This document shows, piece after piece, positions 52,953-57,927 of a stretch of DNA of 64,000 nucleotides. The notes below the pieces were generated by a model. The model did no database searches. It had not been told where the DNA came from and worked only from the letters and a program-made list of their open reading frames with translations. This DNA is from Armatimonadota bacterium. Its GTDB lineage: Bacteria > Armatimonadota > HRBIN16. The position numbers were made by a program, and so were the translations under genes. Each line of letters opens with the position of its first letter. The first letter of the stretch is position 1. The stretch is taken from the NCBI GenBank assembly GCA_026003195.1, contig BPGU01000002.1:372001-436000 (forward strand). The letters are read 5' to 3'.

Positions 52953-54428
52953 ATGGATTCCAATGTTCGCGTGCGCTTTGCACCCAGCCCGACGGGTTCA
53001 CCGCATATCGGCAACATCCGCACCGCGTTGTTCACATGGCTTTTCGCACGGAAGCACGGAGGCGTGTTCATCCTGCGCATCGAGGATACCGACCGCGCCC
53101 GCTACGTGGAGGGCTCGGTGCAGGAGATTATGGATAGCCTGCGCTGGCTGGGGCTGGACTGGGACGAAGGTCCCTACTTCCAGTCAGAGCGTCTACCGCT
53201 GTATCGCGAGGTAGCAGAGAGACTGGTGGAAACGGGACATGCTTACCGTTGCTACTGCACACCAGAACGTCTGGAGGAGCTGCGTCGCCAGCAGGAGGCA
53301 GCGAAACAACCCACTGGCTATGACCGAAAATGCCGCTACCTCTCGCAGGAGGAGCGTGCCAAAATAGAAGCGGAAGGCACGCCATACGTTATCCGCTTCG
53401 CGATGCCTCTGGAGGGCGAGACGGTCTTCCACGATGAGATTCGGGGCGAAATCCGCTTCGAAAACGCGCTGATAGACGACTTCGTGATGCTCAAGTCGGA
53501 CGGCTATCCCACCTACCACCTCGCCAGTGTCACCGACGACCACTATATGGGCATCACGCATGTCATTCGCGGTGAAGAGTGGATTTCCAGCACCCCACGC
53601 CACGTACAGATGTACCTCGCGCTGGGCTGGGAAATGCCCAAGTTCGCCCATTTGCCCATGATTTTGGGTACCGACCGCAAGAAACTCTCCAAACGGCACG
53701 GTTCGGTGCAGTTCGTGGAGTACATCCAGCAGGGCTATCTTCCAGAGGCGATGTTCAACTTTCTCGCCCTGCTGGGCTGGAGCGCGGACGAAGACCGTGA
53801 ACTGTACTCGCGCGAGGAACTGATAGAACGCTTCGACCTCTCCGGCGTGCAGGAGAACCCCGCCATCTTCGACGGGCAGAAGCTGTTGTGGATGAACGGC
53901 GTATACATCCGACGCAAGCCGATAGAGGAACTCACACGGTTGTGTCTGCCATACCTGCAAGAGGCAGGGCTGATGCCGCAGAACCCTTCGCCAGAGCAGA
54001 TACAGTATGCCCAGCGGGTCATTGCACTGGAGGCGGAGCGCATGAAGCTGCTTTCCGAAGTGGTACCGCTCACTGAGTACTTCTTCCGCGATACGCTGGA
54101 GTATGAAGAGAAAGGCGTGCGCAAGTGGTTTACCCAGCCGTATGTGGCGCAGATGCTGGAGATGCTTATCGATCGCTACGCGACGCTGGAGCCGTTCGAT
54201 CTGGAACACATCGAAGCCACCACCCGCGCCGTTGCCGAGGAGCTGGGCGTGAGCGCGGCACAGGTGATTCACCCCACGCGCGTGGCGGTGAGCGGACGCA
54301 CCGTCGGTCCGGGGCTGTTTGAGATGATCGAGGTGATGGGCAAGGAGCGCGTGCTGCAGAGGCTGCGCACAGCGCAGGAAATGGTTCGGCAAATGGCTAT
54401 GACCGATGGAGGGTACCCCTCCCGCTGA
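52953..54428 (+). CDS. gltX: Glutamate-tRNA ligase
   Basis: The 491-residue class I synthetase charges tRNA-Glu, or possibly tRNA-Gln in organisms lacking GlnRS. The HIGH motif appears as APSPTGSPHIGN, the catalytic KMSKS-type loop as DRKKLSKRHGS, and the C-terminal anticodon-binding helical region is present. Usual length is about 470-500. ATG 52953 has GAGGTGAT positioned seven bases upstream; a GTG four codons earlier is within that Shine-Dalgarno and is rejected. It is followed after 53 bp by the converging thioredoxin-like gene. Confidence 0.97.
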   Translation: MDSNVRVRFAPSPTGSPHIGNIRTALFTWLFARKHGGVFILRIEDTDRARYVEGSVQEIMDSLRWLGLDWDEGPYFQSERLPLYREVAERLVETGHAYRCYCTPERLEELRRQQEAAKQPTGYDRKCRYLSQEERAKIEAEGTPYVIRFAMPLEGETVFHDEIRGEIRFENALIDDFVMLKSDGYPTYHLASVTDDHYMGITHVIRGEEWISSTPRHVQMYLALGWEMPKFAHLPMILGTDRKKLSKRHGSVQFVEYIQQGYLPEAMFNFLALLGWSADEDRELYSREELIERFDLSGVQENPAIFDGQKLLWMNGVYIRRKPIEELTRLCLPYLQEAGLMPQNPSPEQIQYAQRVIALEAERMKLLSEVVPLTEYFFRDTLEYEEKGVRKWFTQPYVAQMLEMLIDRYATLEPFDLEHIEATTRAVAEELGVSAAQVIHPTRVAVSGRTVGPGLFEMIEVMGKERVLQRLRTAQEMVRQMAMTDGGYPSR

Positions 54429-54481: not shown

Positions 54482-55045
54482 CTACTGCACCAGCTTCTGG
54501 ATTTCCTGTTCAAACAGTTTCTCGTGCTGTTTGCTGAATCCAATTTGGCGCAGGGTGACCTTGTGCGCGCGGTCAGTGAAGATGGTGGTAGGTAAAGCTG
54601 TCACCCTGTAGAGCTCCGCGCCGGTGAGTTTTTCACTGTCCATCGCCACAGGCAAGGTGAGTTTGTACTTTTCGACAAACGCCCTTACTGCCTGCTTGTC
54701 GGAGTCCAGGGCAACGGCGACGATCACTACGCCTTTCGAGGCATACTGCTGGTGCAGCTTCTCGAGGAACTGGACCTCCCGGGTCCAGAACGGGTTACCG
54801 ATGTTGCCGAAGCTCAGCACCACCGGCTTCCCCGGGTTCCTTCAGAGGTAACACAGGGTCTCGCCGGTGACCACATTGGTCACATCAAAGGCGGGAGCGG
54901 CTGCTCCCACCGGCAGGCTCGAGGCGAACACTGCCGGGTTGCTGGCATCTACAGCAGGCGCAGGCTCTTGCTGAGCCAGAGTGGTCCATGCCACGCCCAG
55001 CGCGACGCCGCCTGCCACCAGCGCAAGCCATCGCATGTGTCTCAT
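54482..55045 (-). CDS. Thioredoxin-like (TlpA/AhpC-type) protein with in-frame TGA at a CxxC site
   Basis: The frame encodes a signal peptide (about 1-23, MRHMRWLALVAGGVALGVAWTT), a linker, the VGAAAPAFDVTNVVTGETLCYL segment ending at TGA (54842-54844), and then in the same frame RNPGKPVVLSFGNIGNPFW and a complete thioredoxin-like fold through LRQIGFSKQHEKLFEQEIQKLVQ. The first Cys and the TGA fall as C-Y-L-stop, where I recall planctomycete and armatimonad relatives having CYxC. The residue at TGA would therefore be the second Cys of the active site. Selenocysteine at this place is plausible, or it is a pseudogene. It is the last gene of the reverse-strand operon, 27 bp after the methyltransferase/MTHFR gene. 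Confidence 0.65.
54809..54830 (-). other. Hairpin 3' of the in-frame TGA (SECIS-like candidate)
   Basis: On the reverse strand, twelve bases after the TGA, GAAGC (54830-54826) and GCTTC (54813-54809) enclose a 12-nt loop containing GGU, at 18-20 bases from the TGA, close to the distance in the Escherichia coli fdhF SECIS. The stem is only five pairs, so this is suggestive only. Confidence 0.25.
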
Positions 55046-55072: not shown

Positions 55073-56899
55073 TTATTCTGTCAATACATCTATGACGGCT
55101 TCCGCCACCTTGTGGTTACCAAAAGGTGGCATCAGGTAGATACCCTGGGTCCTCTTTCGCGCCTGCAGGGCAAAATCCCTTGCCACATCGAGCCCGTACT
55201 TTCGAGCATCGGCGTCGTCCAGTTCTGCTAAACGCTTGCGGATGGGGTCAGGTATCTGCACACCCGGCACCTCATGGTGCATGAACTCCGCATGGCGCGA
55301 GCTGCGCAGGGGCAATACACCTACCAGCAATGGCAGTCCCAATTTGCCCACCGCTTCTGCTGCCCTCTCCAGCACCACGATATCGAAAATCGGCTGGGTG
55401 TACACCAGATGCGCGCCCTCCGCTGCCTTGCGCTTCAGGCGTTCGTCTTCCGCATGCTGGTCATACGCAAGGGGGTTGTAGGCGACGGCGATGGTGAAAG
55501 CGGTTTTCACGCCGATACTGTTTCCTGCAAGGTCCACCCCCTCGTTGAACCGCCGCAGGATGCGCACCAGCCCGATGGAGTCGATATCGAACACCGAGGT
55601 CGCGGTTGGATAATCGCCAATCAGCGCAGGGTCGCCCGTCACCGCCAGGATGTTGCGGATGCCCAGGGCGTGTGCGCCCAGCAAGTCCGCCTGAATCGCC
55701 AGCAGGTTGCGATCGCGGCAGGCGAAATGCATCATCACCTCAACACCCACCTGCTCCTGGATCAGGTGAGAGATAGCGATGGGGTTCATACGCAGCCGGG
55801 CGCGCGCACCATCGGAGATGTCGATCGCGTCTACGCCACGCTCTTTCAGCGAGCGTGCCCCTTCCAGCACCTTCGCCACATCTAGCCCTCGCGGCAGGTC
55901 CAGCTCCACCGCAATCACGTACTTCTTGCCCAGCTTGCCTGCCAGTTGGGACGGCTCCGCACGTGGCAGTTCTTCGGGTTGGACCGCCTCGACCACCTTT
56001 GCCGGAGCTCGCCGGGCGCGCGGTTTCACCCCCTGCAGACGTTCTGCCACCGCACGGATATGGGCAGGGGTCGTGCCACAGCAACCACCGATAATATTCA
56101 CGCCGATTCGCGCGAACTGCTCGCCATACTGAGCGAAGTAATCGGGCTGCGCTTCAAAAGCCACCTCACCACGCTGATACTGCGGCAAGCCGGGCGTGGG
56201 CATTACCGAAAGGGGAAGACCGGTTGCGGAAGCCATCGCCTGCACAATACCCACCATGCGCTGCGGACCCACCACACAGTTTGCGCCGATGGCATCCACG
56301 CCCCACTCTTCTAACGTACGCGCCACCTGTGCCGGTAAGCCAGATGCGAGCGTCTCGCCGTCTTCGATAAACGCCTTCTGTGCGATGACAGGAATATCGC
56401 TATCCAGCGCGCGCAGCTGGTGCAGGGCAATTCGGAGCTCATCCAGATGCGTGAAGGTCTCCAGCAGGATAAGGTCTACGCCTGCTTCCAGCAGCACCTC
56501 TATCTGCTCGCGGAAAGCCTCTCCTGCCTCCTGTGGCGCTATCTGCCCGATAGGCGCCAGCGGCTTGCCGACCGGTCCCACCGATCCTGCCACTATCACC
56601 GGCAAGTCGCCTGCCGCCTCGCGCGCCAGACGCACCGCCGCCAGATTGATCTCCCGCACCAGATGCCCCGCGCCATGCGTTGCCAGCTTCACGCGGTTCG
56701 CGCCGAAGGTGTTGGTCTCTATCAAGCGTGCACCGGCGTCGATATACGAACGATGAACCTGCCTCACCGCATCGGGTTGCACCAGGTTCGCCAGCTCGTA
56801 TGGCGCCTGCACACCAAGGCGCTGTAGCATCGTGCCCATCGCGCCGTCTGCGATGAGCACTCCTTCCTGGAGTATCTGCCGTAAACGTTCTCTCTTCAC
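55073..56899 (-). CDS. Bifunctional homocysteine S-methyltransferase/methylenetetrahydrofolate reductase
   Basis: The 608-residue protein fuses two domains. The N-terminal ~290 residues are a homocysteine S-methyltransferase with DGAMGTMLQRLG, GANRVKLATHGA and the zinc site GGCCGTTPAHIRA. The C-terminal ~300 residues are a MetF-type reductase with VEVMMHFACRDRNLLAIQADL, NILAVTGDPALIGDYP and a final flavin/NADH region. This domain order is that of Bacillus YitJ-type proteins, which make 5-methyl-THF and remethylate homocysteine from another methyl donor. GTG 56899 overlaps the previous stop as GTGA. It lies in a four- or five-gene operon. Confidence 0.95.
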   Translation of the reverse strand: MKRERLRQILQEGVLIADGAMGTMLQRLGVQAPYELANLVQPDAVRQVHRSYIDAGARLIETNTFGANRVKLATHGAGHLVREINLAAVRLAREAAGDLPVIVAGSVGPVGKPLAPIGQIAPQEAGEAFREQIEVLLEAGVDLILLETFTHLDELRIALHQLRALDSDIPVIAQKAFIEDGETLASGLPAQVARTLEEWGVDAIGANCVVGPQRMVGIVQAMASATGLPLSVMPTPGLPQYQRGEVAFEAQPDYFAQYGEQFARIGVNIIGGCCGTTPAHIRAVAERLQGVKPRARRAPAKVVEAVQPEELPRAEPSQLAGKLGKKYVIAVELDLPRGLDVAKVLEGARSLKERGVDAIDISDGARARLRMNPIAISHLIQEQVGVEVMMHFACRDRNLLAIQADLLGAHALGIRNILAVTGDPALIGDYPTATSVFDIDSIGLVRILRRFNEGVDLAGNSIGVKTAFTIAVAYNPLAYDQHAEDERLKRKAAEGAHLVYTQPIFDIVVLERAAEAVGKLGLPLLVGVLPLRSSRHAEFMHHEVPGVQIPDPIRKRLAELDDADARKYGLDVARDFALQARKRTQGIYLMPPFGNHKVAEAVIDVLTE

Positions 56900-57927
56900 G
56901 GTTCGCTACCCCGACGCAGACTCAGCCAGTATTGTACCCTATACGCTGACGCGCCGCCAACCAGCACCAGCAAGCCTCCACGCAGGCTGGGCACCGAAAC
57001 CAGTCGCGCCTCCTGGACCACCCCCTCCAGCGGCTCACTCTGCCAGAGCACCTGAGCAGGTGCGGAAAGAGTCGGCGGCACTACCAGAACCAGCGACTGT
57101 TTGCCCTCGCCTGCCGAACGGCTCACCAGCAAAGGTTGTTCGGGATGCAATGATTTGCCCAGCTGCGCGAACAGGCGGTCGTATCCCTCCTGTGTCCAGC
57201 TTCCCATCTCCAAATCGCGGAAAGCAAGAGGGGTCACGAGGCTCGCCCACTGTGCCCCATCGAACTGCTGAGGCAGGGAGAGCAGGCTGTCCATTCGCAG
57301 ACGCTCCAAGCGCAACCACCCTTCGCGCGAGGCGAGGTTCAATACACCACGCCATACTCCGCCCGGATAAGCTGCCACCGGCACATCCTCGCCCTCACGC
57401 AGGGAGGCGCAGGCGAACCAGTGGACCTCCTCCTTGCGTGTGCGCCTGGTGTACTTTCCCTCCTCCAGCGTGATGAGATTGCGTGGGGTCAACACCTGCA
57501 TTGTCTTGCTTCCTCTCACAAAACAACCGCTTACCATCCCGCGCAGTTCTCCGGGATCCAGGGGCGTCTGCCACTCTTGCTGCCAGTTTTCCCCTTCGCG
57601 TTTCCAGATGCGCAGATGCAGTACATCCTCCTTCGCACTGTCCCTGTGCAAGGTGACCAGGCGCAACTGTCCCTCGCCGCTGAAATCTACCAGTGCTGCA
57701 GAGAGGGTATCTGCAGGTAGCGCAAACTCCCACGCCTTCTGCCACCCGCGCAGGGGAGCGGAGGGTTGCTGCTGAGCTAAGGCGACAACAACCAGCCAGA
57801 GCAGCAGTAGCGCTATCGGCAGCAAGGCGGAACCTCTCCCCCGTCCCCTCTCCCACAGGGAGAGGGGCGTCACCCTCACAGGGAAGGGGGATAGGGGGTT
57901 AGGTCGTCTTCTGAAAACCTCACTCAT
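56896..57927 (-). CDS. Secreted hypothetical protein with a repeat-derived N-terminus
   Basis: The 343-residue protein starts at ATG 57927, which overlaps the TrmH-type stop as ATGA with AGAGGAAGAG upstream, so this start is supported. Its first ~34 residues (RRPNPLSPFPVRVTPLSLWE and following) are translated from a dispersed hairpin repeat; a membrane/signal helix follows (about 36-52, LLPIALLLLWLVVVALA). The rest is beta-rich, with ALVDFSGEGQLRLVTLHRD and LRIWKREGENWQQEW strands that look like FG-GAP/propeller repeats. Function unknown. A TTG downstream (about 57826) would remove the repeat-coded part and is the alternative. Confidence 0.65.
   Translation of the reverse strand: MSEVFRRRPNPLSPFPVRVTPLSLWERGRGRGSALLPIALLLLWLVVVALAQQQPSAPLRGWQKAWEFALPADTLSAALVDFSGEGQLRLVTLHRDSAKEDVLHLRIWKREGENWQQEWQTPLDPGELRGMVSGCFVRGSKTMQVLTPRNLITLEEGKYTRRTRKEEVHWFACASLREGEDVPVAAYPGGVWRGVLNLASREGWLRLERLRMDSLLSLPQQFDGAQWASLVTPLAFRDLEMGSWTQEGYDRLFAQLGKSLHPEQPLLVSRSAGEGKQSLVLVVPPTLSAPAQVLWQSEPLEGVVQEARLVSVPSLRGGLLVLVGGASAYRVQYWLSLRRGSEP
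57845..57867. repeat. Hairpin repeat inside the 5' part of a coding sequence
   Basis: CCCCTCTCCC (57845-57854) and GGGAGAGGGG (57858-57867) with a 3-nt loop repeat the element at 47476-47501. Here it sits within the predicted coding sequence, where it encodes the basic n-region of the signal peptide. Confidence 0.6.

Follow-up and report, generated by a model that had tools for sequence, protein, structure and literature searches.

The gene at positions 54482..55045 on the minus strand of the window, the 64,000-nucleotide stretch of Armatimonadota DNA analysed here, very probably codes for a selenoprotein with selenocysteine (Sec) at residue 68: an exported protein of the redoxin fold that carries a C65-x-x-U68 pair and belongs to an uncatalogued family of Cys and Sec forms. 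The complete frame runs from an ATG at 55045-55043 to a TAG at 54484-54482 and comprises 187 codons, the in-frame TGA at 54842..54844 (minus strand) being counted as Sec. The sequence-only reading of the window had the same frame before and after this TGA, and no frameshift was found on either side; the context C-Y-L-TGA-R it had described was recovered as C65-Y66-L67-U68-R69. The C-Y-L-U motif (54842..54853, minus strand) contains the sole conserved Cys/Sec pair of the family, C65 and U68, in invariant columns of the alignments A2 and A5. Read through the TGA, the protein consists of a probable signal peptide followed by GETLCYL-U-RNPGKPVVLSFGNIGNPFWTREVQ. The putative signal peptide, residues 1-24 (MRHMRWLALVAGGVALGVAWTTLA; 54974..55045, minus strand), was assigned by eye from a basic n-region, a hydrophobic core and an A-x-A-like end; homologues have the same layout, and export of the product is suggested. 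Elsewhere in the window TGA is a normal stop, e.g., in the nearby gltX (TGA at 54426-54428), thus the genetic code is not reassigned. That the TGA encodes Sec in an unbroken gene is supported, at the level of sequence, by its conservation, the decoding machinery, the Cys/Sec pairs, the hairpin and purifying selection.

Ten genomes were compared, all from a single genus near Bacterium HR16 (Chthonomonadia, Armatimonadota); they are separate assemblies and represent every genome of the order in the sample. All ten possess an orthologue with 74-90 % identity and a single internal stop, in every case a TGA at this codon. The codon preceding it varies between L, V and I, and synonymous changes occur around the TGA. 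In every orthologue 357 nt without an indel follow and end in TAG. With a median dS of 0.88 and a median dN/dS of about 0.11 for the part downstream of the TGA, the downstream frame is, judged by these substitution rates, under strong purifying selection. The sequence-only reading had kept open a very recent pseudogene or a read error that turned a TGC or TGT codon into TGA; a fresh nonsense mutation in one genome would also give a single TGA in an intact frame. Here, however, the same TGA is present in ten species of the genus, in separate assemblies, and again in distant families and another phylum. Together with the low dN/dS and the absence of indels over 357 nt, this excludes a pseudogene as well as a read error, an explanation that we have dropped with a probability close to nil. 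Very improbable, too, is that the TGA acts as a true stop, with a split protein restarting at GTG 54823, or that a near-cognate tRNA inserts Trp or Cys at the TGA. An open reading frame of 113 aa does begin at this GTG, but the codon falls within the strand following the motif, and Cys homologues run as single proteins through the TGA point. Across the homologues only Cys codons alternate with TGA at this site, and TAA or TAG was never seen, which extends what had been remarked for the window sequence. The full Sec machinery and the SECIS-like hairpin also speak against both a split protein and near-cognate decoding.

Homologues with Cys or Sec at this codon were found in two phyla. Searched with a profile, 291 Armatimonadota genomes yielded four further TGA homologues (33-56 % identity), and the pattern CYx[C/TGA]x5PVxxxF revealed Sec forms in four more genomes of the phylum and Cys forms (CYRC) in five; the reversed pattern, used as control, had one match. 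One pattern match, L079 (G032), was rejected as a chance frame. Applied to 392 Planctomycetota genomes, the pattern detected mostly CYRC and four CYx-U members, with strict-pattern members in roughly 30 genomes. The relatives with CYxC(R/K) in both phyla that the sequence-only reading had named exist, as CYxC(R/K/Q) or with TGA at the codon. The profile of the CYRC/U group (A5) matches 110 of the 291 Armatimonadota genomes; in the inspected matches the motif reads CPVC, CPPC, CFPC or CYRC, or else has TGA in place of its second Cys (CPV-U, CPT-U, CYx-U), and among the matches listed all 19 TGA-bearing ones have the TGA at this column. Conservation of the UGA and Cys homologues aligned to it, both expected of a selenoprotein, are thus present. 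The only other internal stop was a TAA, in frame but at a distance from the motif, in a Cys-form member (L193, G048:C68), a pseudogene or an assembly error. Two paralogues fall short of the pair: L199 has CYTR, with one residue lost, and L203 has SYVS, with both lost. The window group and the CYRC/U group aligned over 149 columns with an hhalign probability of 99.2 % (E 9e-20), and still with 98.5 % (E 3e-15) after masking of the four motif residues. None of 14 A5 members gave a meaningful Pfam or NCBIfam match, and no NCBIfam model scored the window protein above its cut-off. The CYx[C/U] pattern had 16 matches in viral contigs (IMG/VR), all of them chance short frames. The suggestion that this selenoprotein is missing from the common lists held: by comparison of Pfam and NCBIfam models, no CYxU redoxin is among the 119 prokaryotic selenoprotein families and subfamilies in Table 1 of a 2026 review (PMC13188914). 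No publication mentioning Armatimonadota together with selenocysteine turned up in a literature search. The family is uncatalogued and occurs in two little-studied phyla, Armatimonadota and Planctomycetota; its Cys and Sec forms are interchangeable.

The absence of sel genes from the window had been one reason to leave the pseudogene option open. This did not stand, for selA, selB, selC and selD, the genes expected for a bacterial selenoprotein and proposed earlier as a genome-wide search, are all located elsewhere in the same genome (assembly of 4.58 Mb in 29 contigs). SelA and SelB were identified with E values of 8e-152 and 2e-124, and one strong match to tRNA-Sec (72.9 bits) has a UCA anticodon; the next-best, lower-scoring match (L002) was a tRNA-Ser. 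The selD gene (L019, G000:C1:183661-184587) has an in-frame TGA of its own in the sequence CAG-U-ASKLG, the G-U-x-x-K context of the known Sec form of SelD, and is a built-in positive control for Sec decoding in the genome. Of the Armatimonadota genomes with a CYx-U form, 17 were tested and 16 had a tRNA-Sec, the lone exception being a 77 % complete assembly; among genomes with a CYRC form it was present in three of the five tested; this count leaves out CPV-U, CPT-U, G205, G246 and the Planctomycetota Sec genomes.

Downstream of the TGA, the most favourable fold is a SECIS-like stem-loop at 54797..54827 (minus strand) with 7 + 6 pairs and one mismatch, 13 pairs in all, an energy of about -18 kcal/mol and a 3-nt apical loop GCU at 54813-54811. 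It is far stronger than the weak five-pair stem described earlier, which is not the best structure. The stem begins 14 nt and the loop 28 nt past the TGA. According to the bSECIS rule, a stem-loop lies 16-37 nt downstream, with a G in the first two loop positions and an energy of -7.5 kcal/mol or lower (PMC13188914). A check against this published model had been proposed, and all ten genus orthologues conform to it; some distant Sec homologues are weaker. Relative to synonymous-codon shuffles, the 60 nt had a folding z of about -3.3 (the genus mean being more stable by 3.3 SD), and the mean for Cys homologues was 0.45 SD. Sec forms were more stable relative to shuffles than Cys forms (p 5e-5; 0.02 when the genus counts as a single entry). 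In the window helix 91 % of the pairs are kept; covariation among 12 sequences did not exceed that of shuffles, owing to the low variation between them. Eight of 12 distant Sec homologues reached -7.5 kcal/mol under the bSECIS rule versus 15 of 31 Cys forms, hence, beyond the genus, Sec and Cys forms cannot be told apart by this rule on its own. Among the four distant Sec homologues that failed, L111 is without any qualifying hairpin. The independent Sec clade CPV-U (family f15; L187-L189, from G074, G072 and G073, respectively) has a 15-pair hairpin after the TGA in which three pairs changed on both sides among the three sequences available; the shuffled mean was 1.3, and 36 of 500 shuffles reached this value. 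These members provide a good natural SECIS set. As in the fdhF-type SECIS of E. coli, the window's stem-loop directly follows the UGA, with the loop at 16-37 nt, whereas its sequence differs and the predicted apical loop has 3 nt. SelB and tRNA-Sec would decode the in-frame UGA with the help of the stem-loop from 14 nt downstream, and Sec would be inserted at residue 68.

A tree of 47 CYxC/U rows requires two label changes, each Cys clade being nested among Sec rows; the tree of the wider family (83 rows) is weakly supported and calls for about ten. Rooting with canonical TlpA proteins was rejected: the outgroup fell, with a long branch, within the window group and does not root the family. 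A repeated exchange of Cys and Sec at the column is supported by these sequence trees, and a Sec-first history is possible. We tentatively consider, as a somewhat doubtful reading, a new family in which the redox centre of the thioredoxin fold shifted to a turn with CxxU/CxxC, across the strand from the classical site and at its opposite end, with Sec early and its replacement by Cys repeated. An early Sec with repeated Cys replacement would go against the usual Cys-to-Sec direction in bacteria; Sec-to-Cys changes are rare there (PMC13188914).

The thioredoxin-like nature of the protein, claimed from the letters, was confirmed by Pfam matches to AhpC-TSA (PF00578) and Redoxin (PF08534) and by ResA structures as best PDB matches, both by the model and by profile search (e.g., 4nmu, 1st9). 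The AlphaFold model has a thioredoxin-like fold at moderate confidence (mean pLDDT 60, pTM 0.58); its input consisted of the window and related-locus sequences, and a deeper alignment might improve it. The Cys/Sec pair is real, as proposed, but does not occupy the usual thioredoxin CxxC position, whose cysteines are gone. In the profile alignment to ResA the WCxxC is opposite GNIGNPFW, part of a degenerate, cysteine-free canonical site GNIGNPFWTR (54779..54808, minus strand) with W-T-R invariant in the window subfamily, and C65-U68 is placed before the preceding strand. By thioredoxin topology, the CxxU pair is probably displaced to the other end of the strand preceding the canonical site; residues 67-70 have a pLDDT below 50, which leaves the CxxU site's geometry uncertain. 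The protein shares with ResA/TlpA the fold, the predicted export and the cis-Pro region (PTT), but differs in lacking a WCxxC at the catalytic site, with the Cys/Sec pair about 14 residues upstream. GNIGNPFWTR takes the place of the CxxC that ResA/TlpA proteins carry at the N-end of their first long helix, and the NCBIfam ResA score was 70.6 bits with a cut-off of 170 bits. Despite the PF00578 match, the peroxidatic PxxxTxxC/U of AhpC/TSA peroxiredoxins is absent from the translated sequence. On sequence features this makes it a redoxin-like selenoprotein that, by motif or cut-off, would not be placed in ResA/TlpA. Known TlpA-type selenoproteins (UGC TlpA, ResA-like WAxxUGC, Prx-like UxxC) likewise combine a redoxin fold with Sec, but have the Sec at the canonical site and in motifs other than CYxU; with the WAxxUGC model (NF041054) the window protein scores 24.7 of 300 bits. 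The CxxU motif is shared with SelW-like and AhpD-like proteins, Prx-SUH (NF045827) and the FCYXU TonB receptor (NF049945), the last even having C-Y-x-U, but these are different families, and the window protein matches none of their NCBIfam models.

The product, probably exported, most likely functions as an envelope thiol/selenol oxidoreductase, and its only conserved reactive pair, C65-x-x-U68, is most likely joined as a selenenylsulfide; the ResA/TlpA fold has lost its classical WCxxC here, and the pair would sit in the turn before the strand leading to the classical site. That the CxxU of this selenoprotein instead binds a metal or carries selenium or sulfur, rather than taking part in dithiol exchange, is unlikely. 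The pair lies off the catalytic site of the thioredoxin fold, a CxxC or CxxU in a turn can bind metals, and two distant members adjoin a cytochrome c/YncE beta-propeller gene; on the other hand, alignment A5 contains no further invariant Cys or His ligands, and uncharacterised CxxU selenoproteins are mostly thought to be redox proteins (PMC13188914). The YncE-like neighbours, with cytochrome c-like CxxCH motifs, were observed at L124:2388-4238 beside a Planctomycetota Sec member (the protein on which Pfam was run) and at L132:6918-8675 beside an Armatimonadota Cys member; an electron-transfer partner is possible. In one Planctomycetota genome a peroxiredoxin-like gene (L137:5540-6127) directly adjoins a Cys-form member. 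In the window, the upstream gene on the same strand, 27 bp apart, encodes a homocysteine S-methyltransferase/MTHFR fusion (55073..56899, minus strand). The gene order with this fusion, a hypothetical gene and an rRNA methyltransferase-like gene as neighbours of the selenoprotein gene is the same throughout the genus. The hypothetical protein (56896-57927, minus strand), kept in the genus beside the fusion and the selenoprotein, has an N-terminal hydrophobic stretch, and one of its orthologues in the genus had no Pfam match. No operon partner conserved across families was found, synteny being present at the genus level only.

The catalogue of about 119 selenoprotein families gains one uncatalogued, widespread family, whose Sec members would be truncated by gene callers that stop at TGA. 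With its reactive pair away from the textbook position, the family may exemplify a second design for a redox centre on the thioredoxin fold, and the several Cys/Sec switches at the same column make the family a good system for studying why bacteria keep or drop selenium.
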